NCBI RefSeq assembly: GCF_904846715.1
Contig: NZ_CAJHBU010000002.1
Location: forward strand, 186,001 to 250,000
DNA from: Psychrobacter vallis
Lineage (GTDB): Bacteria > Pseudomonadota > Gammaproteobacteria > Pseudomonadales > Moraxellaceae
Length of the DNA: 64,000 nucleotides
Direction of reading: 5' to 3'
The notes under the pieces were generated by a model. That model had not been told where the DNA came from. It saw only the letters and a list, made by a program, of their open reading frames with translations, and made no database searches. Of this stretch, positions 4,219-56,974 are shown one piece after another. A program made the translations under genes and the position numbers. How positions within the stretch are numbered: position 1 is the stretch's first letter; every line of letters starts with the position of its first letter.

Positions 4219-4260
4219 CGCTCCTAAGCCATTGACACATATCAATTGGATAAAGCCCTA

Positions 4261-14460: not shown

Positions 14461-14500
14461 GACTGTACCGCTCCCTCTTTATAAAAGAATATCAATAAAA

Positions 14501-14638
14501 TATAGTCGGTGAAAAGTAATATCGATGCAACACGTACTGCTGGTGCAAATTTTTCTTGCTTGCTGTGCCTTCGCAGACAGAGGCTACAAAAAATTTGCAC
14601 CAGCAGTACTGTAGCGACTGTGAAGTATTTCCACTATA
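14501..14638 (+). repeat. TATAGT-ended miniature repeat, copy 3 (best-preserved hairpin)
   Basis: It begins TATAGTCGGTGAAAAGTA and ends TATTTCCACTATA, an imperfect terminal inverted repeat. Perfect 21-base arms (14534-14554 and 14589-14609) flank the shared CTTGCTTGCTGTG and AGACAGAGGCTAC core. It lies upstream of the serine hydrolase start on the minus strand. Confidence 0.85.
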
Positions 14639-14647
14639 CTTGCTCAT

Positions 14648-14678
14648 AAAAAAGGCCACCTATAGGTCGCCTTTTTTT
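14648..14678 (-). terminator. Bidirectional-type terminator
   Basis: A6-GGC-c-ACC, the loop TATA, then GGT-c-GCC-T7. It lies 35 bases past the stop of the minus-strand phosphatase-like gene and probably ends its transcript. Confidence 0.8.
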
Positions 14679-14712
14679 ACTCAGTAATGATGATGCTTTA
14701 GCGTGGTACTTT

Positions 14713-15282: not shown

Positions 15283-15334
15283 AATAATAAGTTTGTTCGT
15301 TAAATATGGCTATTAAGATAAAAGTTTTCTCATA

Positions 15335-16252
15335 CTATTTGCTGTCGCTCTGTAATCTAACAACGCCAGCCAGATGCGGCTTGTCATTTTTTGAGCTATA
15401 CAAACCAAATGCACACGTGTCTGCTGCGTTCTCAAGCTGCGCCACCGGATCAGCGATAAGTTCTACCTCAGCTGGTAAAAAGATAGGCAGCTTAAAGGAT
15501 ACCTCAACGGTACAAGCATCTGGCAAGTCATCCATCATAGCAAGACACTTGGCCTTTGACCACATACCGTGAGCAATCGCTTTAGGAAAACCAAATGCGC
15601 GTGCCGATAATGGATGCAAATGGATAAGGTTAAAATCGCCTGAAACAAAGGCATAACGACGGCCGATATCTTCTGGTACTTCAAAGATACTATGCACCCC
15701 TTTCTCGTTAACCAACGGCTTGACTGTTACTGGGCGCGGTGTACTTTTTTTGTCCTGACTGCTGCTAGGTTTTTTGCTACGAGATAGATAGGTGGATGTC
15801 CCTTCCCATACCACTTTATCCTCTGATTTGACCGTCGTCACAAAGTCAAACTGTTGCCCTTGAGCGTGGTCACGTAAATTGTCAAAAGTAACTGACATGG
15901 CGACTGTTTCGCGCTCACCGATAGGACGGTATTGAGTGACGCTATTTTCAACATGCACCAAACCCAACATAGCAAACGGGAATGGCTCTTTGACCATCAT
16001 ATTCATTTGCAGCGCTTGCGACAGTACAGAAAAATAAGTGATGGGCACTTTGCCATTATCCGCAAAACCACAAATCTTGCGATAATCGTTTAAATTATCC
16101 TGCTCGATATGCAAATCATCCACATAATAAGTTGCTTGTGGCAATTGATCTCTACTAATTTTGCCACTATTACCGATCGGTAGTAAACTTTTTACGATAT
16201 TGGCATAAGTAGTATGCGCTTTTGGCAACGCATCATAATGTTTATCTGACAT
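15335..16252 (-). CDS. MaoC-like (R)-enoyl-CoA hydratase, HtdX type
   Basis: 305 residues; AGGA lies 7 bases before the ATG. The C-terminal hotdog domain (about residues 190-300) carries the hydratase-2 motif: SGDFNLIHLHPLSARAFGF followed by AIAHGMW, with the catalytic Asp and His. The N-terminal half, with VTFDNLRDHAQG and ADNGKVPITYFSVLSQALQM, is the non-catalytic hotdog half found in two-domain hydratases. Such enzymes hydrate trans-2-enoyl-CoA to (R)-3-hydroxyacyl-CoA. The upstream FabG4-like gene and divergent thiolase match the Mycobacterium htdX-fabG4-fadA2 group, which supports this role. A terminator and a repeat separate it from the FabG4-like gene, so it may have its own promoter. 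Confidence 0.8.
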   Translation of the reverse strand: MSDKHYDALPKAHTTYANIVKSLLPIGNSGKISRDQLPQATYYVDDLHIEQDNLNDYRKICGFADNGKVPITYFSVLSQALQMNMMVKEPFPFAMLGLVHVENSVTQYRPIGERETVAMSVTFDNLRDHAQGQQFDFVTTVKSEDKVVWEGTSTYLSRSKKPSSSQDKKSTPRPVTVKPLVNEKGVHSIFEVPEDIGRRYAFVSGDFNLIHLHPLSARAFGFPKAIAHGMWSKAKCLAMMDDLPDACTVEVSFKLPIFLPAEVELIADPVAQLENAADTCAFGLYSSKNDKPHLAGVVRLQSDSK

Positions 16253-16380
16253 AAATAAATCCTAAGTGGGGCTTGAACAAATTTTCTGCGTGCATGTAGA
16301 GGCGCTATGAATACGTGGATTAAGCTCTAGCAATAAGCAATGTCGTAAGTACTATGTTTAATTCATTGTACTTACGACTA

Positions 16381-16519
16381 TATAGTTGGGTGCTAAATAA
16401 AAGTGCTATACGATATTATAACGCAGGACTGATACAAATTTTGCTTGCTGTGCTTACGCATATAGAGTTTATGACAAATTTGCACCAATTCTGCTGACTC
16501 TTATATTGACCTAACTATA
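16381..16519 (+). repeat. TATAGT-ended miniature repeat, copy 4
   Basis: It begins TATAGTTGGGTGCTAAATAA and ends TATTGACCTAACTATA. The core is eroded: GATACAAATTTTGCTTGCTG on the left and ATGACAAATTTGCACC on the right, so the stem is imperfect. It lies between the minus-strand FabG4-like and MaoC-like genes. Confidence 0.75.
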
Positions 16520-16563
16520 ACAGCAGAAAACGATCTGGCGTATGGTTTCTGTGTTTTTATCAT

Positions 16564-16589
16564 AAAAAAGCCACCCTTGGGCAGCTTTA
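16564..16589 (-). terminator. Terminator between the fabG4-like and maoC-like genes
   Basis: On the minus strand, AAAGC-tg-CCC-aa-GGG-tg-GCTTT is followed by further T. It lies about 135 bases beyond the FabG4-like stop and should end that transcript before the MaoC-like gene. Confidence 0.65.
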
Positions 16590-16723
16590 TTACAATTTAT
16601 CAGCAATTTTTTCGTAAGCATATGTTAGGTAAATTAAAAATAATTCGCTATATCATATATTTATCGAAAGTACGATTAACATTTACCTCTACTAAACGAT
16701 AAATAATATGTATTTAATGAATG

Positions 16724-18124
16724 CTATGCACCCAGTAAGCTTTGACCACAAACACGTACAGTATTGCCATTTAAGCCGCCAGAAGCAGGTGATGCCAACC
16801 ATGCGATGGTTTCAGCCACATCTACTGGTAAACCGCCTTGACTCATTGAGTTCATACGGCGACCCGCTTCACGAATAGCGAATGGAATGGCTTCTGTCAT
16901 TTGCGTTTCGATAAATCCTGGAGCGACTGCGTTGATTGTCATGCCTTTTGCGTTGTCTTCTAGTTGCTTTGCCGTAGCATCAACCAAGCCAATAACACCC
17001 GCTTTAGAAGTCGCATAGTTGGTTTGACCCATGTTACCGGCGATACCTGAAATTGAAGATACGCAGACGATACGGGCATTTTCTTTGAGGACATCATTAT
17101 CTAATAAGTAACGGTTCAGCTTAGCGATACTGCCTAAATTAATATCGATTACCATATCCCACTTTTTTTCGTCCATGTTTGCCAGCGTTTTATCACGTGT
17201 TACGCCCGCATTATGAATAACTGAGTCCAGACCACCACGTTTTTGTGCCGCATCTGCGATTTGAGCGCCTGCGTCGTCACTGGTGATATCGACAGTTAAA
17301 GCCGAGCCACTGATTTCGCTAGCGACTTTTTGTAGGTCAGATTGTTGCTGCGGTACATCAAGACAGATAACGTGTGCGCCTTCGCGCGCCAATACACGAG
17401 CAATGGCTTCACCGATACCGCGACTTGCGCCAGTAACCAGCATAGTTTTGCCGCCTAGCGGTTGATTCCAATCAACATCCACCGAATCTCCTTTGCTCAC
17501 ACGAACCACTTGACCTGAGACATAAGATGAACGGGCTGACGTGAAAAATCGCAACGTCGAATCTAGATTTTGTTCAGCACCTTTTGCGACATAGATAAGT
17601 TGGGCAGTTACGCCGCGCTTAAACTCTTTACCAACTGATTTTACAAAACCTTCAAGCGCACGCTGAGCCAAGGCAGCATCGATATCCGTGATATCCTCTG
17701 GTGGGCGACCAACGATGATGACTCGGCCTGATTTGTCTACGCGGCGCGCCACACTGTGAAAGAATTCATATACTTCTTTGAGCTGAGCTGCATTACTGAT
17801 ATTGCTGGCATCAAACAATAAAACTTTAAATTTATCATCGCCACCCGTATTGGCTTTTGCTTCTACGCCTGCATCCGCAAGAGCGTCTTTGATATCATCA
17901 CTACTATTCACAAACACTTCAGCATGGACATCTGACAGTATACGCGCTAATGACTCGCTGACGCTTTTATCTTCACCATCAGCACGACCAACCAACACAC
18001 TACCACGTACCAAACGCTCACCACTCTCGAAACGATCAAGAGTGACTGGCAAAGGCAAGCCTAAATTTTTTGCAACTTTTTTGCCAATAGAAGACTGAAC
18101 AAAATCACCATAACGGTCTGACAT
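16724..18124 (-). CDS. Two-domain 3-oxoacyl reductase, FabG4 type
   Basis: 466 residues; AGGA lies 7 bases before the ATG. Residues 1-215 form an N-terminal flavodoxin-like domain that is degenerate in nucleotide binding, typical of high-molecular-weight FabG proteins. Residues 225-466 are an active SDR: TGASRGIGEAIARVL, DVPQQQ after the second strand, HNAGVTRDK, the catalytic Ser in VSSISGIAGNMGQ, YATSK and the APGFIETQMT loop. The length agrees with M. tuberculosis FabG4 (about 454). It reduces 3-ketoacyl-CoA or -ACP to the 3-hydroxy form with a nicotinamide cofactor. It is divergent from the thiolase, with 557 bases between, and upstream of the MaoC-like gene. Confidence 0.9.
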   Translation of the reverse strand: MSDRYGDFVQSSIGKKVAKNLGLPLPVTLDRFESGERLVRGSVLVGRADGEDKSVSESLARILSDVHAEVFVNSSDDIKDALADAGVEAKANTGGDDKFKVLLFDASNISNAAQLKEVYEFFHSVARRVDKSGRVIIVGRPPEDITDIDAALAQRALEGFVKSVGKEFKRGVTAQLIYVAKGAEQNLDSTLRFFTSARSSYVSGQVVRVSKGDSVDVDWNQPLGGKTMLVTGASRGIGEAIARVLAREGAHVICLDVPQQQSDLQKVASEISGSALTVDITSDDAGAQIADAAQKRGGLDSVIHNAGVTRDKTLANMDEKKWDMVIDINLGSIAKLNRYLLDNDVLKENARIVCVSSISGIAGNMGQTNYATSKAGVIGLVDATAKQLEDNAKGMTINAVAPGFIETQMTEAIPFAIREAGRRMNSMSQGGLPVDVAETIAWLASPASGGLNGNTVRVCGQSLLGA

Positions 18125-18681
18125 AATATAATCCTATAGCTGATGGTTAAATAAGAGTAAACAGTGAATAAAATGCACCTATTATATAGGTGTACCAACA
18201 TCATAATTATCGATATAAAGTAAATAAGGCTAAAACTGCCTTAACTATACACTTTCATCATAAACAAGTCCAAAAACCACTAATGTCTATAACAATCTGT
18301 AAACAAGCTAGTATACAAGAGGGCAACTTTTTCTAGCGTCTAAAAATATCATATTGTGCTAATATTAAACGTATAAGTTATGGGGGACGTAATTATTGAT
18401 AACAATATATTATCAAATATGCGGTTATGCAATATCATTATTCAAGACCAATTAGTTTAATAAGGTGGGATCTGTGGGTTGCAGTCCTGTTCTTGACCGT
18501 TTATAAGCGTCACATAATTTGCCAAAGATATACATTAAGACAGTAAAAACCGTTCTATCTTAAACAGTTATGCAGCACAATAAATGCTAGCATTTGTTTA
18601 TTATCTTTTGATGACCTAGCAATCATTTTTAATATTGCCTTTTTTTTATCTACTTCTATTTAAATTTTTAAGGATAACACT
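18125..18681 (+). other. Intergenic region between divergent fabG4-like and thiolase genes
   Basis: 557 bases with no convincing open frame, tRNA or repeat. It must hold the promoters of both flanking genes and is long for a simple divergent promoter. I see no operator palindrome that I can name. Poly-T and AT-rich stretches lie near 18600-18660, just before the thiolase ribosome site (AAGGA). Confidence 0.5.
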
Positions 18682-20241
18682 ATGAGTAACAAAAACAATC
18701 ATCCTGATAGCCCTGTTGTTGAAAGCACTGTCGTAAAAAGCGATGATGCAAAAGATAAAGACACCGTAAATAAAGACACAGCAACGACTGATACCACTAC
18801 TAGCTCGAATGCCCCTACCAGCTCAAAGTCTGCTGACGTGACGTCTACTAATAAATCAGAAAACACCAAAAAAGACGCAGCCGAAGATAAAGCAACAACA
18901 GTAGCAAGCAAAAATCCCGCCACCACGGCTAAAAAATCCAGCAAGACCAAAGCCGTCTCAGGTCAAAACCGTGTGGCTGTCTTAGGTGGCAACCGCATCC
19001 CATTTGCTCGCTCAAACGGCTCATACGCTGACGTCAGCAATACAGACATGCTAACAGCCGCTCTCGATGGTCTGATTGAACGCTATAACCTACAAGGCGA
19101 AGTCGTAGGCGAAGTTGTGGCTGGTGCAGTCATGAAACTAAGCCGCGACATCAACCTGACTCGTGAAGCCACGCTAAACACAGCACTCAATCCACATACA
19201 CCAACTTATGATATCTCACAAGCCTGTGGTACTGGCTTGCAAGCGACCTTTGCCTCTGCCAATAAGATTGCACTTGGTCTTATCGATTCAGCCATTACTG
19301 GCGGTGTCGACACCACCTCTGACGCTCCTATCGCGGTTGGCGATGGCCTGCGTAAAGTCCTTATCAAGCTCGGTGCGGCAAAAGACAACAAACAGCGTCT
19401 AAAAGCCCTCATGGGTCTGAATCCAAAAGACTTGATTGATTCACCGCAAAACGGTGAGCCACGTACAGGTCTATCGATGGGCGACCATCAAGCGATCACC
19501 ACGCTTGAGTGGAATATTAGCCGTGAAGCACAAGATGAGCTTGCCTTTAACAGTCATCAAAACCTTGCACGCGCCTATGACGAAGGTTTCTTTGACGACT
19601 TAATCACCCCATACAAAGGTCTGACTCGCGATAACAACTTGCGCCCAGATACCACACTAGAAAAACTAGGCAAATTAAAGCCCGTGTTTGGCAAAAAGAA
19701 CGCCAATCCAACAATGACAGCAGCCAACTCTACGCCCCTCACAGATGGTGCTTCTTGTGTACTACTGGGTACGGATGAGTGGGCAAAAGAACATGGTCTA
19801 AAACCACTGGCTTATATCGTTCATCAAGAAACAGCAGCCGTTGACTTCATTGGCAAGTCTGGTACGACAGAAGGTCTACTAATGGCACCAGCCTATGCCG
19901 TACCACGCATGCTTGAGCGCGCTGGTCTGACATTGCAAGATTTTGATTTTTATGAAATCCATGAAGCGTTTGCCTCACAAGTGTTATCAACGCTAGCGGC
20001 TTGGGAAGATGAGAAATTTTGTGAAGAGCGTCTAGGTCTTGATGCGCCACTCGGATCGATCGATCGTAGCAAACTGAATGTGAATGGTTCATCATTGGCT
20101 GCTGGCCATCCATTTGCAGCCACTGGCGGCCGTATCTTAGCAACTGCTGCTAAATTACTGGATCAAAAAGGCTCAGGTCGGGCGCTAATCTCAATCTGTG
20201 CAGCGGGTGGTCAAGGCGTGACTTGCATTCTAGAAAAGTAG
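18682..20241 (+). CDS. Acetyl-CoA acyltransferase (thiolase), FadA2/FadI type
   Basis: 519 residues; AAGGA lies 7 bases before the ATG. Residues 95-519 are a thiolase: VAVLGGNRIPFARSNG at the start of the domain, the acyl-accepting Cys in DISQACGTGLQA near 178, NSTPLTDGAS, the His of EIHEAFA, NVNGSSLAAGHPFAATGGR, and the second catalytic Cys in SICAAGGQG. It would cleave or form 3-ketoacyl-CoA. The first 95 residues are a low-complexity Thr/Ser/Lys/Asp stretch not found in ordinary thiolases. The frame is continuous and the ribosome site is good, so the extension is likely real. It pairs with the divergent FabG4-like and MaoC-like genes in fatty-acyl metabolism. Confidence 0.92.
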   Translation: MSNKNNHPDSPVVESTVVKSDDAKDKDTVNKDTATTDTTTSSNAPTSSKSADVTSTNKSENTKKDAAEDKATTVASKNPATTAKKSSKTKAVSGQNRVAVLGGNRIPFARSNGSYADVSNTDMLTAALDGLIERYNLQGEVVGEVVAGAVMKLSRDINLTREATLNTALNPHTPTYDISQACGTGLQATFASANKIALGLIDSAITGGVDTTSDAPIAVGDGLRKVLIKLGAAKDNKQRLKALMGLNPKDLIDSPQNGEPRTGLSMGDHQAITTLEWNISREAQDELAFNSHQNLARAYDEGFFDDLITPYKGLTRDNNLRPDTTLEKLGKLKPVFGKKNANPTMTAANSTPLTDGASCVLLGTDEWAKEHGLKPLAYIVHQETAAVDFIGKSGTTEGLLMAPAYAVPRMLERAGLTLQDFDFYEIHEAFASQVLSTLAAWEDEKFCEERLGLDAPLGSIDRSKLNVNGSSLAAGHPFAATGGRILATAAKLLDQKGSGRALISICAAGGQGVTCILEK

Positions 20242-44994: not shown

Positions 44995-47052
44995 GTGTCC
45001 AACAATCAATGTCTATGCTTAAGCAATCGCTTCAAAGACAACATAAATTCATATTCTGTTGTCTTTACTCTGCTATTTTTTATGTTACTAATGTCTAACA
45101 GCGCTCACGCTAACTTTGCATCGAATGAAACCTCTGCAAACGGCATGTGTCCTGTTAATCATAAAATGTATTACATTGGCGCTAATCCTCCTGCCTCTAC
45201 TTCAACTTTTCCTGTAGCCTCCCAAGCGTTGAGCTGGACTGCAGGCAGCACTACTAGGACTTTTACTTTCACTGAGTCATCAGGTAATAAAATATTTAGA
45301 ATTACCTTCTCCAACATATTAGATAAAACTACAACTACAATTAGTGTACCGTCAAATGCCGAAACACCTTTTTATGATAGCCTTAGCGGTGTAACCACAT
45401 CAGCCATAAATTTAGTTCATAGCTCTCCAGTATCAACCATTTCTAAAACTAACCATAGTATGGGGATTGCAGTTAACCGATCTACTAGTAAGTCGGGCTA
45501 TAAAATACAAGACTTGGATTCTGTCACAACGAATAATGCAACGCCATATATAGAACAAGTAGATGTGTCTGCCAATAGCGGTAAACTGACTCATAACAGC
45601 AATTTTCATACGATAAACGCGGCTGGCAATATTGTTACTGGTAGAAGAGGACTGAACTGTGGAGTAGGTGCATGTACTATTGATGCAAATTGGGACTACA
45701 CACTCGCTGATATTGCACTCAATTTGAGGCATAATAACGTCTTAAGTGAAGTAAACAGCCCGCATGCGGTCGGTTATTCAGACTTTTATTTCTGCTTAGC
45801 ACCACCTAAGTTAATCATTAAAAAAGCACTCAATGGCAACCGTGTCAATGATAGTGATACTAAACGAGATCAATTTGAGCTAACTGCTACCGGAGGCTCA
45901 ATAGCGACAAACAGCTTTACGACAACTGGCACAGGTTCAACCATCACCAATGGTACTAGCGCTACCCTTAGCTTAGCAGAGAACACAAGTTACATCATTA
46001 CAGAACGAGCTATGAATGGTACATCACTGGGTAATATAGCAGACTATGATGCTACCTATACTTGCACCAATGCCACGACTGGTAGCACCACCGTTATGCC
46101 AACTGCTGCAATGACTTACAACGCCACCGCTAACACTCGCTCATTTACACTTGCTAATGCGACATATGGTGATGAGATCACTTGTACAATTACAAACACT
46201 CCGAGATCTTATACTTTTTCGGGTATTGTTTTTAATGATAATGGCGGTATCGTAGATAATAACAACACCAGACAAGATATATCGAGTACCTTTACAGGTA
46301 ATAGCAGTTACTTTAATGGCATTTATGATAGTGGAAGTGAGCTTGGAATCTATGACAGTACCTTAAATATACGTTTAACCGACTGTAATGGTAATAATAT
46401 CGTAACCCCCTCATCAAACCCCCAAACTGTCTCAAATCTTTCGACCTCTATAGGAAGATATAGCTTTGTAGTAGCTGCCAGCGCACTAGTCAATAGAACC
46501 AAGGTTTGTGTGATTGAGAATGAACCAAGCGTATGGGACTATACCGTAGACACAACTGCTGATAACAGAGAAATTGTACTAACAGCCAACGTCTATGATT
46601 ATAGCAATTTAAACTTTGGCGAAATCAAAGCCAATAATTCGGCATTAGTACTAATAAAATCACAATATGTGCATGAATGTAATGATAATTTAAATTATCA
46701 AAGTATCAGCAGAAATAGCGCTGACCCGACCATAGGTTTCAGTGTCAACTCTATTAGTGGCATCAGTCCAGGAAAGTGTGTTGCCTACGCAGTTCAAGCC
46801 TATAATCGTGGACATATAGGACTTCAACAAGTACAAATTCGTGACCAGCTACAAACCACTCCGGTTACCTCGGTGTTTAGACTGCCTGCACCTTTGTTTA
46901 TTCCTACTTCAGTAGGTAGTCCTTCGGTTAACTATGGCAGCAATGGTGAGATTCGGTCTAATCAATTCGGTTTAGCAGCTGTGCCTCCTGGCAGTACGCA
47001 ACCAAGCTCAGCAACATTGTACTTCAACACCAAATACGGTCAAACACAATAG
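44995..47052 (+). CDS. Secreted DUF11/prealbumin-like surface protein
   Basis: 685 residues starting at GTG, with GAGGT well placed upstream. A signal peptide (residues 1-39, ending SAHA|N) sends it across the inner membrane. Residues 40-275 are Thr/Ser-rich beta-type sequence. Residues 278-400 look like a SpaA/prealbumin-type domain (LIIKKALNGNRVNDSDTKRD ... CTITNTPR). Residues 404-545 hold an SdrD-B-like unit (YTFSGIVFNDNGG). The last 140 residues share a two-cysteine module with the 700-residue protein encoded at 48203. No membrane anchor, LPXTG or barrel is seen. Likely a surface or secreted structural protein, exported with help from the barrel protein downstream; that role is inferred. 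Confidence 0.7.
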   Translation: MSNNQCLCLSNRFKDNINSYSVVFTLLFFMLLMSNSAHANFASNETSANGMCPVNHKMYYIGANPPASTSTFPVASQALSWTAGSTTRTFTFTESSGNKIFRITFSNILDKTTTTISVPSNAETPFYDSLSGVTTSAINLVHSSPVSTISKTNHSMGIAVNRSTSKSGYKIQDLDSVTTNNATPYIEQVDVSANSGKLTHNSNFHTINAAGNIVTGRRGLNCGVGACTIDANWDYTLADIALNLRHNNVLSEVNSPHAVGYSDFYFCLAPPKLIIKKALNGNRVNDSDTKRDQFELTATGGSIATNSFTTTGTGSTITNGTSATLSLAENTSYIITERAMNGTSLGNIADYDATYTCTNATTGSTTVMPTAAMTYNATANTRSFTLANATYGDEITCTITNTPRSYTFSGIVFNDNGGIVDNNNTRQDISSTFTGNSSYFNGIYDSGSELGIYDSTLNIRLTDCNGNNIVTPSSNPQTVSNLSTSIGRYSFVVAASALVNRTKVCVIENEPSVWDYTVDTTADNREIVLTANVYDYSNLNFGEIKANNSALVLIKSQYVHECNDNLNYQSISRNSADPTIGFSVNSISGISPGKCVAYAVQAYNRGHIGLQQVQIRDQLQTTPVTSVFRLPAPLFIPTSVGSPSVNYGSNGEIRSNQFGLAAVPPGSTQPSSATLYFNTKYGQTQ

Positions 47053-47084
47053 GATTTATAGAAAAAATCTATAACCTATAAAAA

Positions 47085-47324
47085 TTGGTCCAGAACGATA
47101 TAACAGACATTCTTTATCATAAAGATGTCTGTTTTTTTACGCATACGCTAAGTAATGTGGGTAATGTTAGAGATACTTATATTATTAGACCCACTGGTAA
47201 CGATGATCCTAATATCACGATGTCAACTTCAAATTATGCTCTTGGCATCACTGATATCACCTATATTTTTAAGCAATAAGACGGCAGTGCTTTGATGCCC
47301 GCTCAGAATTCCGCAATAAACTTC
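47085..47324 (+). pseudogene. Degraded paralogue of the 700-residue DUF11 protein
   Basis: The frame QNDITDILYHKDVCFFTHTL ... SNVGNVRDTYIIRP ... ITDITYIFK aligns with residues about 85-150 of the protein encoded at 48203 (NHTLTNSGNVEDTYTLALV ... STNVTYVIYN). A TAA at 47277 interrupts it, and similar sequence (DGSALMPAQ) continues for a few codons. No signal peptide or C-terminal part remains. It is the debris of a duplicated gene. Confidence 0.6.
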
Positions 47325-47695
47325 TCTATCCTACTCTTTTTATAACTACACACAGCAAATATTAAAAGAATTCGGCATATTTTTTATGACAATAATTGCC
47401 ATCTTACTGACATTTATAGTCAGCTATATGCCTCCCCAGTAATTCTAAGAATGAGCCAAAATATCCATAAAATTATATTTTGGTTTAATGATTGCCATTA
47501 GACTGCCTGAAAATACCACTCGTCACTTATAACATGACTCGTTAGCATATTATTTGTAATAATGTAACTAGGTACGCTATATCTTGTTTTTATGTAGTTT
47601 ATTTGATTCTTTATCATAGATATGGCGCGATTATTGCATACGTGCCAATAGGTAAAATTTTTACCAAAAATTATGGTCTTAGCAAGGATAAAAAT
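47325..47695 (+). other. Intergenic region before the small DUF11 gene
   Basis: AT-rich and without a convincing open frame. It contains TATAGTCAGCTATA near 47418, which resembles the ends of the TATAGT repeats but has no core. Presumably it holds the promoter for the genes from 47696 onward, as the paralogue debris separates them from the 44995 gene. Confidence 0.4.
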
Positions 47696-48160
47696 ATGAA
47701 CATCTTCAATGCTTTACGTATCGTTTTACTAGCGTCTTTAGCCTCTTTTTCATTACTAAGTGTTGCCCATGCTGATAATGCACTGCAAATGGAACTCACC
47801 GCTAATAAAGTCATTAAGAATGCAGAGGGAAAAGTCAGTTATTTACCTGTGAGCACTGCACCAGCAGGCACTACTATCCAATACAAAGCGACTTACACCA
47901 ATACGATCAATAAAGATATTAATGACCTAATGGTAACGTTACCTATCCCTGCAAATATGATATTTACTGGTGAGGCAAACCCTGCCAGCGCACAAGCCAG
48001 TACTGATGGTAAAAACTACGCCGATATGCCACTGATGCAAAAAGTAAATGGCAAGCTGGTCAAAACACCTTTATCTGAATACCGTACTCTACGTTGGAAT
48101 ATCAAACTATTACCAGCCATGAAGTCTGCTGCCGTTGCTCTAAACACAACCGTTAATTAA
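47696..48160 (+). CDS. Small secreted DUF11-like protein
   Basis: 154 residues from the ATG at 47696 (AAGGA lies 8 bases upstream); the 31 extra codons of the longer frame are rejected. The signal peptide ends SVAHA|DNA at residue 26. The mature 128 residues form a single DUF11-type beta-sandwich: MELTANKVIKN at the start, GTTIQYKATYTNTINKDIND, LPIPANMIFTGEANPA and TLRWNIKLLPAMKSAAV. No cysteines or anchor. It begins the compact three-gene run 47696-55761, with 42 bases to the next gene, so they are probably one operon. It could be a periplasmic or surface accessory of the larger proteins. Confidence 0.7.
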   Translation: MNIFNALRIVLLASLASFSLLSVAHADNALQMELTANKVIKNAEGKVSYLPVSTAPAGTTIQYKATYTNTINKDINDLMVTLPIPANMIFTGEANPASAQASTDGKNYADMPLMQKVNGKLVKTPLSEYRTLRWNIKLLPAMKSAAVALNTTVN

Positions 48161-48202
48161 TAAACTATTTTATCTTTCATTTTTGCTCAGGAAAATCACT
48201 GA

Positions 48203-50305
48203 ATGAACTCCAATATGTTTAAGTACTCTATACTTGCCGCAGCTATCATTACCTCTTTAGGTATGGTCAGCACAGCCAACGCTGCTAAATCTATAGCCGA
48301 CTCGACACCTACCATTGATAACGTCGCTACTGCCACTTATAGCATTGGCGGTGTTTCACAAACGCCTGTAGAGTCTAACAAAGTAACCGTTAACATTACG
48401 CAAAGTGCGGCATTTAGCTTAACCGCTAAGAATGCAGATGGCGATCTGACCGATGATTACAACACGTCAGTCTCTGTAACACCCAAAGGCAGAGTGGCTT
48501 TTAACCATACATTGACCAACTCGGGCAACGTAGAAGATACCTATACACTCGCCTTGGTTCAAGGTGGTAACATCCCAAACAGCCCGCAAGGTGTCGGGTC
48601 TTATGACTTTGCTAGTACCAATGTAACTTACGTTATATACAATGCAGACAACACTCAAAAGAGCACTAATACCGTTACAGGAACGGTATTTCAAAACACC
48701 AAGATAGTTCTTGCGCCCAATGAACGTGCTGACATTTTGGTTTCTGCTAAAACATCTGGTAACGTTGGTGGTGACTCACAGAACCTAACGTTAACTGCCA
48801 CCAGTGCATTTTTCACAACGTCTGACACTACCAAAGCGACTTTGACCAATATTAGTAACAGCGTTACAAAAGTACCTGTCTTCAAAATTACCAGTAAAGT
48901 AAGCAGTACTCTGAACTTGAATGATCCTACGTCAAAAGTCACTTACACCGTTACCGTGCGTAATGATGAAAATGCTGCATACACTACTAATGCTAACAAC
49001 ATTATGGTTTTTGACGGTCTACCAGAAGGTTTACGTTTAGCAGATCAGCCAAATATCAGCGTCAGCAACAATGCAACCATTACCTCAGGAAATGAAGGTA
49101 AAGGTACTAGTAGTTCAAGCGATAGCATTAGAGTCACTTTACTTAACCTTGCACCAGGTCAAGAAGCCACCATAAAATTTGATGTACAGAAGGATCAAGC
49201 AGAAGTGTTGGCTGATCCTAAGAATACAATCAATCATGCAGCCGTTACTCTTGATCTTGGCGAAAACCAAGTCATGTATGATACAACTGATGCTACTGAT
49301 ACCAAGCAAAACACGGCTAACTTCTACCCTCTAACTGATGATAGTGAAACTACAGATGGTACGGTAAGCACAGCAGTAGGTAGTGATTCAGCAGCACCGT
49401 TAACCTCTAATCAACGTGCCGTTAGCATCGTATCACCTACCAAAATGGACGTTCCTACAACGACCACTGCCACCACACTTGTGACCCATTCTGTGGTAAT
49501 CAGTAACACAGGTAAAGAAACTGAAGGTGATCAAGTTGGTGAAATTAAGGTGAAGATCACCTCAGAGGCTGATAGTAAAGTGAGCGTGGTCGCAGGATCA
49601 GTTGAGTTGGTGTACGATGCTGATAATAATCCAGCCACACCCAATGCTACTTACACGCTTACCAGAGACGGCAATGGTGACTACGACTTCAGTACTGCTA
49701 AACCTAAAAATGGTGCGCCAGCTTGGACGGGTATGGTACCAAACTCAACCGCAACCTTTAATTATCAAGTTGAATCTAGCCAAGCCGTTATTGATACCAC
49801 AGAAAGCATCACTGTCACATTAATTGTTGGCGGCCAAGACGCACCAACTCTAGGCGATCGTATTGTTAAAAACGAAAGTACAGTAAGAGGATTGAAGCTC
49901 GTTAAAGAACAAGCGCTCAATGAAAGCTGTACTGCCAATAGTACACTTACCTTTACTCAAGGAGCAATTGCTGCTAAGCCTGGTAATTGTATTGTATATA
50001 AAATTACTGCCTTTAATAACTTCTCTGCTGCAGATCCACGCTTTACTTTTGACAACGTGCTCATAACAGATACAACAGACCGTTTTAATAACAAAGCAAC
50101 GGTACAAAGTGCCAGTACTGCTTATGCATTCCCAGTCAAATTGGGTGATGTGACCAATGGTAATGAAGCACCTGCAACCAACAGCTATAACGCATCTGCT
50201 AGCAACTCAGCTGTCAGCGGTACCGTAACCAGCTTAGCACCGCAAAAATATGCAGCAATGGTGTTTGCTGTAAAGATTAACGCTGCAGGCTCTGCAACTC
50301 CTTAA
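48203..50305 (+). CDS. Secreted multi-domain DUF11 surface protein
   Basis: 700 residues; AGGAAA lies about 10 bases before the ATG. The signal peptide ends TANA|AKS at residue 27. Residues 35-75 (PTIDNVATATYSIGGVSQTP, then SNKVTVNI) form a start module shared with the giant protein downstream. Beta-rich repeats follow: NHTLTNSGNVEDTYTLALV, a DUF11 unit near 230-330 (VTYTVTVRNDENAAY), and another near 430-540. The last 140 residues carry the two-cysteine module (ESCTANS ... KPGNCIVYKITAFNN). Asp, Asn, Thr and Ser are abundant and aromatic residues few, as in S-layer or fimbrial proteins. No anchor is visible. Function unknown. Confidence 0.75.
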   Translation: MNSNMFKYSILAAAIITSLGMVSTANAAKSIADSTPTIDNVATATYSIGGVSQTPVESNKVTVNITQSAAFSLTAKNADGDLTDDYNTSVSVTPKGRVAFNHTLTNSGNVEDTYTLALVQGGNIPNSPQGVGSYDFASTNVTYVIYNADNTQKSTNTVTGTVFQNTKIVLAPNERADILVSAKTSGNVGGDSQNLTLTATSAFFTTSDTTKATLTNISNSVTKVPVFKITSKVSSTLNLNDPTSKVTYTVTVRNDENAAYTTNANNIMVFDGLPEGLRLADQPNISVSNNATITSGNEGKGTSSSSDSIRVTLLNLAPGQEATIKFDVQKDQAEVLADPKNTINHAAVTLDLGENQVMYDTTDATDTKQNTANFYPLTDDSETTDGTVSTAVGSDSAAPLTSNQRAVSIVSPTKMDVPTTTTATTLVTHSVVISNTGKETEGDQVGEIKVKITSEADSKVSVVAGSVELVYDADNNPATPNATYTLTRDGNGDYDFSTAKPKNGAPAWTGMVPNSTATFNYQVESSQAVIDTTESITVTLIVGGQDAPTLGDRIVKNESTVRGLKLVKEQALNESCTANSTLTFTQGAIAAKPGNCIVYKITAFNNFSAADPRFTFDNVLITDTTDRFNNKATVQSASTAYAFPVKLGDVTNGNEAPATNSYNASASNSAVSGTVTSLAPQKYAAMVFAVKINAAGSATP

Positions 50306-50323
50306 TACCAGTTTGTTCTGTAC

Positions 50324-50357
50324 CATGTTATTTGTCCTTAAAGGGATAAATAACATG
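50324..50357 (+). promoter_or_regulatory. Intergenic hairpin between the two large DUF11 genes
   Basis: CATGTTATTT (50324-50333) pairs perfectly with AAATAACATG (50348-50357), with extra TCC/GGGA pairing inside. No T-run follows, so it is not a standard terminator. It may protect the 3' end of the upstream mRNA or adjust the ratio of the two products. Confidence 0.55.
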
Positions 50358-50433
50358 ATTACGGTCATTACTCCCTCAAAAAGAAGTAAAAGTAATTTTA
50401 TACATTCTGTTGGTTTTATTGGATAAGCGACAT

Positions 50434-53400
50434 ATGACTCTATCTACCATAACACTGTCTAATCGTTCTTCATTGTGCACAGCGAAGATCTCGGCGCTGT
50501 CATTGGCAATGTTGCTTATGCAATCAAACACGGCATTTGCTGCGTCTGATTCACTCTTACAGTTAATCAACAACACGGCGCAAGCCAGCTACAATATTAA
50601 CAATCAACCAGAGGTAACGATCAGTACAGCCTCAAACCAAGTACAGGTCAAAGTTTCTGAGCTTTCTAAATACGGTATTAGCTTAACTCAGCAACCGTTA
50701 CGCACGGTCATGCCTAATAGCTTAGTAAACTGGGTCAACGTTCTAAATAATACTAGCTATAGCGATCAGACTGTTGAGCTCACGTTAGATGTATCGCCAA
50801 CTCTTTCTAATCTAAAAGTTTATCAAGATATCAATAAAAACGGCATCATTGACAGCGCCGATACTGAAGTTATCTTTGACAACTTAAGTGCTCAAATCAA
50901 GCTTGGACATAGCGAAAGCATTCAATTTATTGTGCAAGCTTTATCAGATGCTAACGGTAGGAGTGGCGATACTGCTAGCATTAAGCTTGGTGCGGTCGTG
51001 TTAGAAGATCCGTCTGTATTAGCCGCTAATGCGACTAACAACCTGCTTATCGTTGAACCTGAAGTAAAATTTACTACCCCTCAATTTGATGGAAATAAAA
51101 CCACCTCACAAGTTAGTGAAAACATCTATATCGACGCTAACTATGCGCAATGTAATGTTCAATTAGATAAACCAGATCAAGTATGGGTCACGATCACCTC
51201 TTTATTGACGGGTGACAAGTACTCATTGAAAGCGATTGAGACTGGTAATAGCACTGGTAAGTATCAGTTGTCCGCACCAACTCAAAACAATGCCAACGCA
51301 ATCAATGATAGGATTGTTCAAACATTAGCAAACGATACGTTAACTGCCAGCTTGGACGCTTGTATTGCTCCTTCTGTCGGTACTGGTGCCGATCAGTTAC
51401 CGAGCGATGGCGACTTTACGGTACGTATCGATGATTTAAATACTCAAATCAATATCGTCGATGCCAGTCCAAGTTTAGTAGTCACCAAAGAGAGTGATGT
51501 TAAAAGTGCCGAACTTGGTGACTATGTCAATTATACCATTAACATAACCAATAGTGGCAATGCTACTGCCTTTGATGTACAACTAAAAGATGCTTTACCA
51601 CGTGGTTTCAATTACGCGGATGGTAGTGTACGCGTTAGCCAAACTGCTGATATCGATATCAATAAAGTACAAACCACTGAGTTTAAAGCTGATGGTAGAT
51701 ATCAGGTGTTAAACTTAGGTAACATGGCAAATGGTGAAAGCAAAAAAATTACTTACCGTGTATTGATCGGTGCCTCATCATTAGGCGGTGACGGTATCAA
51801 TCGTGCAACCGCAGTTGCTAATAATGAACAAGGTCAACGCTTCGCATCAAGAGAAGCACAGTGGAAGATTGACGTAGAGCGCGGCATCATGAATACAGAC
51901 GGTATCATCGTTGGTAAGGTCTATCATGATATCAACCGTGATGGTATCCAACAAAAAGACGATGGCGAGCTTGGTGTTGCTGGCGTCCGCATCTATATGG
52001 AAAACGGCAATTTCATTGTGACCGATCCTGAAGGCAAGTACAACTTCTATGGCGTTAGCGCCAAGACTCATGTATTAAAAGTTGACCGCACTACTCTCCC
52101 TAACGCAACTGAAATGGTCACACAAAGCAATCGTAATGCTGGCGACGCGGGTAGCCGTTTCGTTGATTTAAAGTATGGTGAATTGCATCGTGCTGACTTT
52201 GGTATTGTTGGCGGGATGGGTGATAGTACTGAGCGTTTGAATTCAGAGCTGATCGCTCGTAGCAAATCAGTGGGTGTTAAAAATAATACGCTTGACCAAG
52301 CGGTGAAAACAGAGCTAACCTTAGATCCTGACTACAATCGCGACTTTAATGATAATATTAAAGCCAGCGGCTGTCATATCAACGGTGATCTAGACTTTGG
52401 TACTCACTGCGACTCCGCTATCATTAATGAGATCGTCAATCCAGTGGGCAATCGCGTAAATATGGCGGTAACCACTATTGCGCCGCCAGTAGAAAAAGAG
52501 CTCGAAGAATACTTAAAAGAAGTGGCTAATAATGATGTGACTTTCATCAACCTAAACGAAGGTCAGCAGCTTAGTACCTATAAGCAAATGGTACAAGTAC
52601 AAGCACCACTCGGCTCACTATTCACGCTATACGCCAATGGTAAAGCGGTATCAGAGCAACAAATCGGTAAAACTGCTAAGCAAGAAAAGCAAAATGTAAC
52701 TGCTTTTGACTATTATGCGGTTGATCTACAGCGCGGCAACAACGCATTACGCGGCGTGGCTACCGATATTAATGGCAAAGTTATCTCAGAACAAACGATC
52801 AACCTACTAACACCTGACAGCTTACAAGCTATTAATTATCGAACCCAAACGCAGCTAGTAGCAGCCGATGGTATTAGCGAATATCAAATCGTTATCAGCC
52901 TAAAAGATCGTGATGGCCGCCCTTATATTGCCTCAACACCCATCACTATCGATACCAACATTGGCCGTATCAACTTGAATGATGGCAGTAAAGATCAGGC
53001 TGGTACGCAAGTTATTGTGTCGGGCGGCGAGCTATTAATACCAGTGACTGCCCCAAGCGTACCGGGCAAAGGTGAGATGATCATCGATACTGGTAGCAGC
53101 AAACAAATCATCCCATTACAATTCACCGCTCAACTGCGTCCTCTGATCGCAGTGGGTATCGTCGAAGGCGCCATCTCACTCAAAGACTTTGATGGTAGTA
53201 GTATTACAGATGCTCAAGGTGCATTTGAGCAAGAGCTCAATGATTTTGCTGGCAATGATGATTATGCCGCCTCTGGTCGTGCGGCTATGTTCCTTAAAGG
53301 AAAGGTACGCGGTGATTATCTGCTCACCTTGGCTTATGACAGCGATAAAAAAGGTGAGCGCCTGTTCCGTGATATCGAACCTGGTGAGTATTATCCGGTA

Positions 53401-55761
53401 TACGGTGATTCATCAGCCAAAGGCTTTGATGCGCAGTCTACCAGTAAGCTATATGTGCGTTTGGACAAAGGTCGCTCATTCGCTATGTATGGCGATCTGA
53501 AAACACAGATTGACAATGATGAAGGCATCAAACTTGGTCAATATAATCGTACGTTAACTGGTGTAAAAGCCCAATTTGAAGACAATAATACTCGCGTTAC
53601 TGCCTTTGTAGCAGAAACCAGTACGAGCCAGCGCGTCAATGAGACTCGTGGTTTAGGCATCTCAGGTCCCTACCCATTGGCTGAAAACTTTGACGCGGTA
53701 TTAGAAAACTCAGAAATTATTGAGGTGATTACCCGTGACGCAAACAATCCTGGGTTGATTATCAGTCGCAAAACGCTTACTCGCTTCGCCGATTACGAGA
53801 TTGACCCTATTACCCGCAGCTTATTCCTCAAAGCGCCTATTGCCAGTCAGGACATCGAAGGCAATCCTATCTATATTCGTGTTACCGTAGAAGTAGATGA
53901 AGGCGGTGAAGAGTATTTAGTCGGCGGTATTGCAGCCAAACAACAGCTCACTGACAAAATAGCGATTGGTGGTAGTTACATCAATAGTGACGACCCGCTG
54001 AATAAAGAAGAGCTGGCCAGTGTCAACAGCGTCATCAAGTTCAATGAGCAACTAAAGCTGGTCGCAGAATATGCGATGAACAAAGCTGAAAATCCGAATT
54101 TTCAGCCAAGCAATCAGATCAATACGGCAGAATTAAACGGTAATGACGTTGAAGGCAATGCATTACGTATCGAGCTGGACTTTGATAATAAGAAAAATAC
54201 CCGTGCCAAAGCTTATTATAAAGATACTGACGAAGGTTTTGTGACTGGTGCCTCGCCACAAACTGCTGGCCGTGAAGAATCTGGCATCGAAGCCACACAC
54301 CTACTCAATGATAAAAACACCGCATTAAAATTAGAAGGCGTGCGCACTAAAGATCATACGACTGAGGCCAATCGTCAAGGCATCTTAGCCAGTATTGAGC
54401 AACGCTTAAGTACCAACATCGTTGGCGAGATTGGCGTGCGTTATTATAAGCAAGACGCCACTGCTGCCTCACGCAATACTCAAGCGGCAACAGATGTCGT
54501 GGACATTACAGATGATACTGTCTTTAATGATGACATCATCAATCAATCGGCACTCAATAGTGTCAATGATGCTGAAAAAGACATAGAAGGTATCACTGCT
54601 CGCGCTCGCATCACCGCTCGCCTGCCCAAGCTTAACAATTCTTTGGTATTTGCAGAGTACGAACAAGATATTGACAACAGTAATCGCAATGCAACTTCTA
54701 TTGGTGGCGAGACGCCACTAGGTGCATTAGGCCGTTTATATGCTCGTCATGATTTGATCAACAGCCTATCTGGTAGTTATGGTTTGGATGATACTGAAGA
54801 GCGTCAACGTACAGTAGTTGGTTTTGATGCCAACTATATGAAAGACGGCAAGGTCTATAGCGAATACCGTATGCGTGACGCTATCAGCGCTCGCGAAGCC
54901 GAGGCAGCTATTGGTCTAAAGAACAAATGGCATATCCAGAAAGGCTTAACAGTAAACACCTTGTTTGAGCGTATTGAATCTCTAGAAGGTGATACCGAAA
55001 ACACCGCAACGGCAGCAGGCATCGGTGTTGAATATCTTGCAAAAGAAGACTATAAAGCCTCTGCTCGTTTTGAGAAACGTTGGGGTGAGACCAGTGATAC
55101 GTTACTAGGTAGCGCTGGTATTGCTTATCGCTATACCAATGAAGTCACCTTACTGGCCAAAGACATTTACTCGCAAGTCGCCTACGATGATGGTGATCGT
55201 ACGATTAACCGTTTCCAACTGGGTGCCGCTTATCGTGATTACGATAGCAATCAGTTAGACATGTTAACGAAGCTCGAGTATCGCTTAGATGACAACAACA
55301 CTGGTGATGACGCATATCAAAAAGACACGGTTATCTGGTCATTGAGTGGTAACTATCACCCCACACGTCCGCTGACCTTATCCGGTCACTATGCTGGTAA
55401 GTACACACAGTTTAATGCCGATAATATCAGCAGTGATAATACGGCTCATGCACTTTATACTCGTGGTCTTTATGACATTAGTGAACGCTGGGATGTAGGC
55501 TTGCAAGCAGGTACTTACTGGAACAAGCAATCGGATGATATGTCTTATATGCTGGGTGCTGAAGTGGGTTATAGCCCGATGACCAACCTTTGGTTATCAT
55601 TAGGTTATAATTTCATGGGCTTTGAGGACGAAGACATCGCTTATGATGACACCACCCAACAGGGCGCTTATTTTAGACTACGCTTCAAATTTGATGAAGA
55701 CTTATTCAAGCGTGATGATCCTCGCAAAAACCAGCGCCTGATGCCTGTTTCTGAACTATAA
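50434..55761 (+). CDS. Giant DUF11/SdrD-B protein with outer-membrane barrel-like C-terminus
   Basis: 1775 residues from ATG 50434 (an in-frame TTG lies 8 codons earlier). Signal peptide to about residue 36 (NTAFA|AS). Domains in order: the start module shared with the 700-residue protein (INNTAQASYNINNQPEV, about 44-75); an EF-hand-like DINKNGIIDSAD near 130; a DUF11 unit near 347-440 (GDYVNYTINITNSGNATAFD); an SdrD-B unit near 490-560 (VYHDINRDGIQQKDDGELGV); and an Ig/Big-like segment near 790-910. From about 945 to the end, alternating strands such as GDYLLTLAYDSD, SKLYVRLDKGRSFAMYGD and MTNLWLSLGYNFMGF suggest a large barrel. It ends FRLRFKFDEDLFK plus a polar tail. Probably in the outer membrane with the N-terminal part exposed or periplasmic. 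Function inferred only: surface adhesin or export platform. Confidence 0.75.
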   Translation: MTLSTITLSNRSSLCTAKISALSLAMLLMQSNTAFAASDSLLQLINNTAQASYNINNQPEVTISTASNQVQVKVSELSKYGISLTQQPLRTVMPNSLVNWVNVLNNTSYSDQTVELTLDVSPTLSNLKVYQDINKNGIIDSADTEVIFDNLSAQIKLGHSESIQFIVQALSDANGRSGDTASIKLGAVVLEDPSVLAANATNNLLIVEPEVKFTTPQFDGNKTTSQVSENIYIDANYAQCNVQLDKPDQVWVTITSLLTGDKYSLKAIETGNSTGKYQLSAPTQNNANAINDRIVQTLANDTLTASLDACIAPSVGTGADQLPSDGDFTVRIDDLNTQINIVDASPSLVVTKESDVKSAELGDYVNYTINITNSGNATAFDVQLKDALPRGFNYADGSVRVSQTADIDINKVQTTEFKADGRYQVLNLGNMANGESKKITYRVLIGASSLGGDGINRATAVANNEQGQRFASREAQWKIDVERGIMNTDGIIVGKVYHDINRDGIQQKDDGELGVAGVRIYMENGNFIVTDPEGKYNFYGVSAKTHVLKVDRTTLPNATEMVTQSNRNAGDAGSRFVDLKYGELHRADFGIVGGMGDSTERLNSELIARSKSVGVKNNTLDQAVKTELTLDPDYNRDFNDNIKASGCHINGDLDFGTHCDSAIINEIVNPVGNRVNMAVTTIAPPVEKELEEYLKEVANNDVTFINLNEGQQLSTYKQMVQVQAPLGSLFTLYANGKAVSEQQIGKTAKQEKQNVTAFDYYAVDLQRGNNALRGVATDINGKVISEQTINLLTPDSLQAINYRTQTQLVAADGISEYQIVISLKDRDGRPYIASTPITIDTNIGRINLNDGSKDQAGTQVIVSGGELLIPVTAPSVPGKGEMIIDTGSSKQIIPLQFTAQLRPLIAVGIVEGAISLKDFDGSSITDAQGAFEQELNDFAGNDDYAASGRAAMFLKGKVRGDYLLTLAYDSDKKGERLFRDIEPGEYYPVYGDSSAKGFDAQSTSKLYVRLDKGRSFAMYGDLKTQIDNDEGIKLGQYNRTLTGVKAQFEDNNTRVTAFVAETSTSQRVNETRGLGISGPYPLAENFDAVLENSEIIEVITRDANNPGLIISRKTLTRFADYEIDPITRSLFLKAPIASQDIEGNPIYIRVTVEVDEGGEEYLVGGIAAKQQLTDKIAIGGSYINSDDPLNKEELASVNSVIKFNEQLKLVAEYAMNKAENPNFQPSNQINTAELNGNDVEGNALRIELDFDNKKNTRAKAYYKDTDEGFVTGASPQTAGREESGIEATHLLNDKNTALKLEGVRTKDHTTEANRQGILASIEQRLSTNIVGEIGVRYYKQDATAASRNTQAATDVVDITDDTVFNDDIINQSALNSVNDAEKDIEGITARARITARLPKLNNSLVFAEYEQDIDNSNRNATSIGGETPLGALGRLYARHDLINSLSGSYGLDDTEERQRTVVGFDANYMKDGKVYSEYRMRDAISAREAEAAIGLKNKWHIQKGLTVNTLFERIESLEGDTENTATAAGIGVEYLAKEDYKASARFEKRWGETSDTLLGSAGIAYRYTNEVTLLAKDIYSQVAYDDGDRTINRFQLGAAYRDYDSNQLDMLTKLEYRLDDNNTGDDAYQKDTVIWSLSGNYHPTRPLTLSGHYAGKYTQFNADNISSDNTAHALYTRGLYDISERWDVGLQAGTYWNKQSDDMSYMLGAEVGYSPMTNLWLSLGYNFMGFEDEDIAYDDTTQQGAYFRLRFKFDEDLFKRDDPRKNQRLMPVSEL

Positions 55762-56194: not shown

Positions 56195-56974
56195 ATGTTT
56201 AATTCTGCGACCAAAATAAACGTTTGTAAACAAGCTATCTATATCCTGTTATCAGCCGCCTTATTATTGAACACCGCGTTGTCCGCTTCTGCGTCAAGCC
56301 ATCATTCTCTTGAAGAAACAGCTTTAAAGAATGACGCTTACGATTGCGCCAATGATATTCAAACGCAGGCCAATCATTATAAATATCAAAGTACACACCA
56401 ACGCGCCATGACGTGTATGTTGACAGAGCTAAAAAACTATCAACAAAAAAACATGACAGCACATCAACAGTACTTTGCTTACAAAGCTCAAGCTTGGCTT
56501 AATTATGCCATTCACCAAGACAGTATGAATAGTCGTTCATCTGCAGGTAAGCAAGCAGCGCAAAATGCAGAAACTATTTTGGCAATGTTAAAAAGTGGTA
56601 AAGAAAAAGACCTGAATCTCATCCAAGACATCCCTTCTAACTCTGCTTTAATGAGACCGGACCTATGGGCAGTTTTAAATGCCCTTAAGGAATCTGGCGG
56701 TATAACATCAGCACCACGTGAGTTAGCTTTTAGCGAAGTTGCCCTGATTTGGGCGGCAACCAATCAATGTCAGCGTGATTGGCGTGAGTCAGGCAGTCAT
56801 TTTCGTATGGCAGATCGCTGGCTTGAACAAGCACGTGAGGCTTATATCAACGCCCATGATTCGCAAACCAACGTCGTTCTAGAGCAATTAATCGTCCACT
56901 ACTATGAACAATACGCGCCTTTAGATGCGACCAAAGATGTTTGTCGTGGACAAGTATTAATGCCGATTCATTAA
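56195..56974 (+). CDS. Orphan secreted helical protein
   Basis: 259 residues from the ATG at 56195; the 28 codons of the longer frame lie in the miniature element and are rejected. The signal peptide is MFNSATKINVCKQ plus a hydrophobic stretch, ending at about LSASA|SS. The mature part is mostly helical and polar, with QRAMTCMLTELKNYQQKN, YFAYKAQAWLNYAIHQDSMN and ADRWLEQAREAYINAHDSQT, like a tetratricopeptide-type periplasmic protein. Four cysteines are spaced along it. I do not recognise the family. Its only upstream sequence is the element, which may carry or have displaced its promoter. Confidence 0.6.
   Translation: MFNSATKINVCKQAIYILLSAALLLNTALSASASSHHSLEETALKNDAYDCANDIQTQANHYKYQSTHQRAMTCMLTELKNYQQKNMTAHQQYFAYKAQAWLNYAIHQDSMNSRSSAGKQAAQNAETILAMLKSGKEKDLNLIQDIPSNSALMRPDLWAVLNALKESGGITSAPRELAFSEVALIWAATNQCQRDWRESGSHFRMADRWLEQAREAYINAHDSQTNVVLEQLIVHYYEQYAPLDATKDVCRGQVLMPIH

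Follow-up and report, generated by a model that had tools for sequence, protein, structure and literature searches.

How proteins built of DUF11 domains are exported and anchored in Gram-negative bacteria is, to our knowledge, not settled, and a five-gene locus of Psychrobacter vallis offers a concrete, testable answer to that question. The window analysed here, a stretch of 64,000 nucleotides, lies on contig C2 of a 3.22 Mb genome (G000), and the operon that it contains is flanked by aceE and a tetR gene. With its large, conserved, probable barrel and two swappable partners, the locus points to an undescribed platform for changeable surface proteins. The reading favoured here, with a probability of roughly 0.6, is that the five genes form a system in which a conserved barrel platform would display exchangeable surface proteins. 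No description of this system was found in the open-access library searched, a scope outside which most subscription journals and preprints fall.

Gene layout and domain content

The original prediction had recognised four genes in the same direction encoding proteins of 685, 154, 700 and 1775 residues, and these were confirmed as open reading frames of the + strand at 44995-55761. It did not note that genes 1 and 3 are hypervariable, that the proteins share terminal domains, or that there is a fifth gene. The features of the locus are the following:

44995..47052, + strand: gene 1, 685 aa, GTG start, with a SpaA_3 domain and the conserved end YFNTKYG
47130..47300, + strand: decayed extra gene-3 fragment, interrupted by a stop, between genes 1 and 2
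47696..48160, + strand: gene 2, 154 aa, small conserved secreted single-domain protein, weakly DUF11-type
48203..50305, + strand: gene 3, 700 aa, hypervariable
50434..55761, + strand: gene 4 (the giant), 1775 aa
50542..51078, + strand: giant aa 37-215, N-terminal module homologous to that of gene 3 (hhalign)
51475..51822, + strand: giant aa 348-463, DUF11 (PF01345, 46.5 bits)
51916..52122, + strand: giant aa 495-563, SdrD_B (PF17210, 31.3 bits)
53266..55692, + strand: giant aa about 945-1753, predicted outer-membrane beta-barrel (model and fold search)
56195..56974, + strand: gene 5, 259 aa, with a signal peptide recognised by eye

The gaps between genes 1 to 4 are 643, 42 and 128 bp (ORF check), so that the last three are tightly spaced, as had been described. 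An inverted repeat resembling a terminator, with a run of seven T after it, was seen by eye at about 47102-47138, just before the gene-3 fragment, and is absent from the promoter/terminator scan, in which promoter-like sites did not clearly exceed shuffles (42 vs 33.6 +/- 5.7).

The signal peptides predicted for genes 1-4 could be recognised by eye, each protein having a hydrophobic N-terminus with an A-x-A-type cleavage site. The reported lack of a visible sortase or helix anchor also held, since none of the four proteins contains an LPxTG motif or a hydrophobic 19-residue window past the N-terminus. The locus shares its families (PF01345, PF17210 and PF20674) with the DUF11/SdrD_B/SpaA adhesin stalks of Gram-positive bacteria and archaea, but differs from them in having neither sortase motif nor membrane helix, the probable anchor here being an outer-membrane barrel.

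The claim that all four proteins are DUF11-like stood in part. It applies to the giant, the only product of genes 1-4 to exceed the Pfam DUF11 cut-off (24.6 bits), in which the expected SdrD_B unit likewise passed its own cut-off (29.7 bits), and to the middle of gene 3, which is related to the DUF11 of the giant (hhalign 98.1%). Gene 3 otherwise gave no Pfam domain, DUF11 included, and no NCBIfam domain over cut-off, its DUF11-repeat match in NCBIfam being weak and below cut-off (E 0.0023); among its homologues, 8/15 match DUF11 at E <= 0.01. The claim was not borne out over cut-off for gene 1, which falls short of DUF11 membership in Pfam and carries instead a SpaA_3 prealbumin-like domain (PF20674, aa 273-403, 80.7 bits), placed between a hypervariable N-terminal part and a conserved C-terminal domain. 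Nor was it borne out over cut-off for gene 2, for which no Pfam domain, DUF11 included, and no NCBIfam domain was found over cut-off, and which showed a weak DUF11-type match to TIGR01451 (E 0.0015, below cut-off). Comparison of gene 2 with the DUF11 of the giant and with the shared N- and C-terminal modules gave no hhalign probability above 20%, and gene 2 as a homologue of the C-terminal domain of genes 1 and 3 was not supported on the same measure.

The proteins are further connected through their ends. Genes 1 and 3 have homologous C-terminal domains (hhalign 98.4%, 69 aligned columns), and in the alignment of each a pair of Cys residues is invariant; gene 3 is also related to the giant in its N-terminal module (hhalign 97.2%, E 4e-11). 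The sharing of terminal modules points to a common partner for genes 1 and 3 and to a similar build of gene 3 and the stalk of the giant. In Psychrobacter, the partners range from about 540 to 1080 aa for gene 1 and from 610 to 780 aa for gene 3.

The predicted barrel and its relation to known systems

The C-terminal half of the giant had been called barrel-like, and modelling supports this. An AlphaFold2 run with 13 Psychrobacter rows gave a mean pLDDT of 34.7 and was not used, while a second run with two distant rows added reached a mean pLDDT of 60, with values of at least 70 in 322/875 residues and below 50 in residues 1-128. The resulting model is an antiparallel meander of about 31 consecutive strands at query residues 261-851 (giant aa 1160-1750), with more strands predicted upstream, in which short turns mostly alternate with longer loops; its neighbours are outer-membrane barrels, its pTM is 0.47, and closure is not seen. 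By eye, the alignment suggests up to six extra strands ahead of a highly conserved segment at giant aa about 1064-1153 that looks inserted.

Among the 50 PDB matches listed by Foldseek, 48 are bacterial outer-membrane barrels and the others are VDAC1 and ApoB100; LptD comes first, followed by Deinococcus SlpA and TonB-dependent receptors, and the TM-scores of the best matches are low (0.21-0.27). The rows listed by VIA-align are barrels too, headed by the FimD usher (9fy9_D, Z 17.1, 301 residues, rmsd 5.5), which matches model residues 122-596, with porins and FhuA matching residues 560-853. The C-terminal half of the giant is thus probably an outer-membrane beta-barrel as judged from the model; as the structure matches fall on two parts of it, a single closed barrel is not proven, and this half may comprise two barrels in tandem.

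Sequence comparisons are consistent with this assignment. The alignment of the barrel family has 23 rows, with 24-78% identity to the C-terminal part of the window giant, and its members weakly match 11 Pfam families, of which 8 are outer-membrane barrel families. DUF2490 is matched weakly in 10/23 members; we take it, as well as YfaZ and Phenol_MetA_deg, to be an outer-membrane barrel family. The barrel family is poorly covered by the Pfam and NCBIfam models tested, and a profile search found no relative among PDB sequences. Hydrophobic-alternation peaks in the barrel half outnumber those in shuffles (48 vs 25.6 +/- 3.9, threshold 2.6), but the Ig-rich N-terminal half exceeds its shuffles as well (51 vs 37.0 +/- 4.0), so the scan supports beta structure and not a barrel as such. 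Matches in a viral structure library (porins, a SusC-like protein and tail fibres) were uninformative, and searches of IMG/VR gave two relatives and no others. The absence of a family from the structure-match lists was not counted as evidence.

These neighbours raise the question of whether the barrel also acts as an exporter. The giant could be a dedicated translocon, that is, an usher- or SprA-like secretion and assembly channel with a plug-like insert, which would export the products of genes 1 and 3 by means of the C-terminal domain that both possess; we regard this as doubtful. If genes 1 and 3 encode surface proteins, an exit is needed, and no known exporter family was matched in the five operon proteins. 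FimD, whose barrel has 24 strands, is the best VIA-align match, and chaperone-usher systems resemble the locus in that a conserved barrel gene is accompanied by genes for Ig-like partners and for a small conserved Ig-like protein; however, the partners here are multidomain proteins and not short pilins, the model has more strands than FimD, and no Pfam match to an usher or periplasmic pilus chaperone was obtained in the five window proteins at E <= 1, nor to an usher in the 23 barrel relatives at E <= 0.1. The resemblance to SprA of the type 9 system of Bacteroidota consists in a very large barrel, cargo with a conserved C-terminal domain, and a weak Foldseek match (8gl8_A, rank 42 in the list, E 8.8e-4), whereas the giant belongs to Pseudomonadota and carries a fused DUF11/SdrD_B stalk. 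The SprA model TIGR04189 gave no match to the window giant at E <= 1 and a single one among the 23 relatives (E 0.076), no SprA chain was found among the PDB sequence matches to the barrel, and genes 1-3 gave no NCBIfam match to the type 9 C-terminal sorting domain at E <= 1. The SprA barrel is described as having 36 strands (PMC10994853). Distant relatives best keep the first third of the barrel half, including the inserted segment (profile about 35-345), and then the last strands, as would be expected of a gate rather than of a plain anchor, but the plug is read from conservation and from a low-confidence part of the model.

A tentative possibility is that the locus represents an undescribed secretion and assembly system of Pseudomonadota, with a barrel of more than 30 strands and a built-in plug that would recognise the C-terminal domain, export the cargo and assemble it on the fused stalk. 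If so, cargo genes would be exchanged as cassettes, and close relatives would wear different coats on the same machine.

The proteins of the window were also compared with other known routes to the Gram-negative surface. The type 11 secretion system (DUF560/Slam) is similar in that beta-rich cargo is displayed through an outer-membrane barrel, but no Pfam match to DUF560 was found in the window proteins. A link to that system from the literature proved to be a false lead in which 'DUF11' had matched 'DUF1194'; in a type 11 survey (PMC12282271), DUF11 is mentioned once, as an architecture partner of DUF1194. Two-partner secretion finds no counterpart, with no Pfam match to the POTRA-bearing, 16-strand TpsB or to the TPS domain of its cargo in the window proteins, and inverse autotransporters of the intimin/invasin type have an N-terminal barrel and a C-terminal passenger, an order opposite to that of the giant, whose predicted barrel is C-terminal.

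Co-occurrence and joint loss of the genes

The barrel profile matches 94/199 genomes of Moraxellaceae and 48/398 of Pseudomonadota, both samples having been drawn evenly from larger groups. Within the Moraxellaceae sample, 59/66 genomes of the same genus match, three of them (G007, G128 and G217) through small remnants only. Outside Psychrobacter, 36 barrel loci were examined, several of which share a genome, and a DUF11-type gene lies upstream of the barrel in 32 of them, in agreement with the prediction that homologues of the giant usually occur with such a partner. A fused giant (1667-2610 aa) is present at 21/36 loci, 18 of which are preceded on the same strand by a partner that the profiles recognise; the remaining three are L133 and L157, where the contig ends within 0.3 kb, and L120, which has 1.1 kb of room and an unmatched ORF. 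At the other 15/36 loci the barrel is a separate gene (1113-1747 aa), and a DUF11-type stalk gene stands directly upstream in 14 of these, no partner being detected in the 7.9 kb upstream of the barrel at L161. The two split-form stalks scanned for domains, L150 683-6892 (2069 aa) and L151 9411-15848 (2145 aa), contain CshA_NR2, GEVED, 7 or 9 DUF11 stretches, and OmpA. This arrangement of a stalk followed by a bare barrel gene in L150 and L151 is a naturally split form of the giant.

Some loci show particular arrangements. At L132 (genome G148), the module of gene 2, gene 3 and giant occurs twice in tandem at 2438-19901, the second copy having its own gene 1. At L113 (genome G069), the ORF translations upstream of the operon (271-3686) contain short motifs that recur in the manner of a CRISPR array, on one flank of the locus. 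The relative at L122 has weak Invasin_D3/Big_1 matches ahead of its barrel.

The downstream gene is also found in relatives. The gene-5 profile matches the downstream protein at 8/36 non-Psychrobacter loci (L113, L114, L115, L116, L118, L122, L124 and L125). Several of the downstream homologues in other genera have a C-terminal OmpA domain: nine downstream proteins were scanned with Pfam, and OmpA was found in seven (L115, L116, L117, L118, L122, L124 and L125) and not in those of L113 and L130; gene 5 of the window has no OmpA domain in Pfam either.

Gene 2 follows the giant less strictly than its neighbours do. The giant is present in 21/24 genomes of the phylum sample that have gene 2 (Fisher p = 8e-19, with kinship ignored), and a gene-2 match is absent from 27/48 that have the barrel. 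Paralogues of gene 2 also exist elsewhere, with two more in G000, one of which stands alone beside unrelated genes. Further gene-2-like proteins occur in one genome at L144 7913-8509 (198 aa, contig C7) and L145 7178-8143 (321 aa, contig C1), with no match to any other profile of the system within their 16-kb stretches; genus g23 has genomes with similar copies, and the listed barrel matches include none of these genomes.

The fate of the partners was followed in 17 genomes of the same genus, of which 15 have no usable giant (including the three with remnants, and G013, which is 83% complete) and two have a shortened one (G012 and G002). Intact gene 1 and intact gene 3 are each found in 0/17; as some of the giant-less genomes are related to one another, the 17 cases do not stand for as many separate losses. 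What persists is fragmentary: G012 keeps a broken gene-3 fragment and a match inside its giant, and G013 has a 51-position match to gene 3 (E 4.7e-4) and a 68-position gene-1 end with a stop. Both genes are present in G000, G117 and G134, which were searched alongside, the giants of the latter two being counted as present though their barrel matches carry a stop. In G002 (C1:685789-688374, minus strand), the giant is reduced to a frame of 1285 residues that keeps the whole barrel and lacks the stalk, and genes 1 and 3 are absent. Nine scar loci (L135-L143) were chosen at gene-2 matches, so that gene 2 is present in them by choice: aceE, gene 2, gene 5 and tetR adjoin in L135, L141 and L143, L142 shows the same with pieces of the giant, L137-L140 have gene 2 beside aceE and no gene-5 match, and L136 ends near gene 2. 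An unbiased count across genomes likewise shows gene 2 without the giant. The scar loci and the absence counts together indicate that genes 1, 3 and 4 are lost jointly, with gene 2 able to remain. The expectation of strict co-occurrence of the four genes agrees with the absence of intact genes 1 and 3 from these 17 genomes, but does not hold for gene 2, which persists and has paralogues.

This joint loss bears on the idea that the giant is an autotransporter-like adhesin acting alone, which would display its own N-terminal stalk and nothing else, with genes 1 and 3 as independent secreted adhesins that are merely co-inherited. The order of passenger and then barrel is that of classical autotransporters, and the N-terminal modules of the giant are more variable than its barrel (pairwise identity 56-69% and 86-90%, respectively), but intact genes 1 and 3 are missing from all 17 genomes without an intact giant. 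A one-chain autotransporter also does not explain the second subfamily, in which a separate DUF11 stalk gene stands beside a bare barrel gene. Moreover, the strands of the model far exceed the 12 of a classical (type Va) autotransporter barrel, and the Pfam Autotransporter family (PF03797) matches 1/23 members of the barrel family, at E 0.055. On balance, this explanation is unlikely.

Variation and apparent exchange of genes 1 and 3

Sequence variation is unevenly distributed along the operon. Identities were counted on 46/49 Psychrobacter loci, L066, L067 and L069 being excluded for a broken giant frame; alignment A8 comprises 34 rows, namely the window, 31/49 Psychrobacter loci and both IMG/VR loci. 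Across 41-47 loci, genes 1 and 3 have the lowest median pairwise identities (35% and 33%), against 64% for gene 5, 74.7% for gene 2 (45 loci) and 80.5% for gene 4; within the giant, the SdrD_B region (aa 481-600) reaches a median of 91.7%.

The difference persists between loci whose barrels are nearly the same. Among the 39 loci with all five genes, the window included where complete, 68 pairs reach a barrel identity of 97% or more; identity falls below 60% for gene 1 in 57 of these pairs, for gene 3 in 55, and for gene 2 and gene 5 in none. Both genes 1 and 3 fall below 60% in 47 pairs, gene 1 alone in 10, gene 3 alone in 8, and neither in 3. With barrels at least 95% identical, gene 3 is below 50% in 87/115 pairs. 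The converse also occurs, with gene 3 at 88% and barrels at 86.8% between L023 and L040, and at 84% and 88% between the window and L043, and the identities of gene 3 and barrel correlate weakly (Spearman 0.26). Between L027 and L063, both labelled P. glacincola, the DNA matches at 96-98% in the stretches around and between genes 1 and 3, but inside these genes the identity is lost, the similarity breaking at the ends of the two genes. Genes 1 and 3 thus behave, as far as their sequences can tell, as if they were hypervariable cassettes exchanged whole between close relatives.

Exchange of this kind could also be explained by variable coat proteins, but a paracrystalline or fuzzy surface layer built by gene 3 (and gene 1) and held by the giant is very unlikely, given that no SLH or S-layer family match was found in any of the five proteins, even though SlpA chains of the Deinococcus S-layer deinoxanthin-binding complex follow LptD in Foldseek (8ae1_A, E 2.8e-6) and 7zgx_A aligns over 422 residues in VIA-align (Z 12.7, rmsd 17.9). 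SlpA has a long N-terminal region followed by a large C-terminal barrel, a layout similar to that of the giant; the locus differs in its DUF11/SdrD_B stalk, its hypervariable partner genes, and its lack of the SLH domain with which SlpA binds the cell wall (Pfam, window proteins).

Through their conservation the barrel, gene 2 and gene 5 resemble machinery, and genes 1 and 3, which are swapped, resemble the exposed product; together with the shared modules, this favours the barrel display platform. Under that explanation, the giant would be a conserved outer-membrane beta-barrel platform carrying an extracellular structure made up of its own DUF11/SdrD_B stalk together with the products of genes 1 and 3. 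Genes 1 and 3 would represent the exposed, exchangeable part, comparable to an antigen or receptor locus, and probably dock through the C-terminal domain that they share, with gene 3 and the giant probably docking through their common N-terminal module. Horizontal recombination would swap the whole coding regions of genes 1 and 3 and leave the barrel, gene 2 and gene 5 constant. Gene 2 may have an accessory role as a small secreted protein, and gene 5, which is of the OmpA-domain type in relatives, would probably tie the platform to the cell wall. The original prediction of a giant that would anchor or export its smaller neighbours is supported in part: the gene content, the co-occurrence and joint loss, the common domains and the cassette-like variability are direct observations, the barrel has the backing of a model of middling confidence, and surface location, docking, the roles of genes 2 and 5, recombination and export are inferred. 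Because genes 1 and 3 are swapped on a constant platform, they are likely to be under outside pressure from phages, grazers or hosts, which makes the locus a natural place to seek strain-specific recognition.

A library of cassettes within the genome was considered as a source of the alleles and rejected, as G000 has no second copy of gene 3 except the fragment at 47130-47300. That fragment sits where L047, L048, L065 and L071 have an intact second gene-3 copy, which follows gene 1 and precedes the last gene 2. Gene 1 can be doubled as well: at L043, positions 77-4015, two different gene-1 homologues of 676 and 557 aa stand in tandem.
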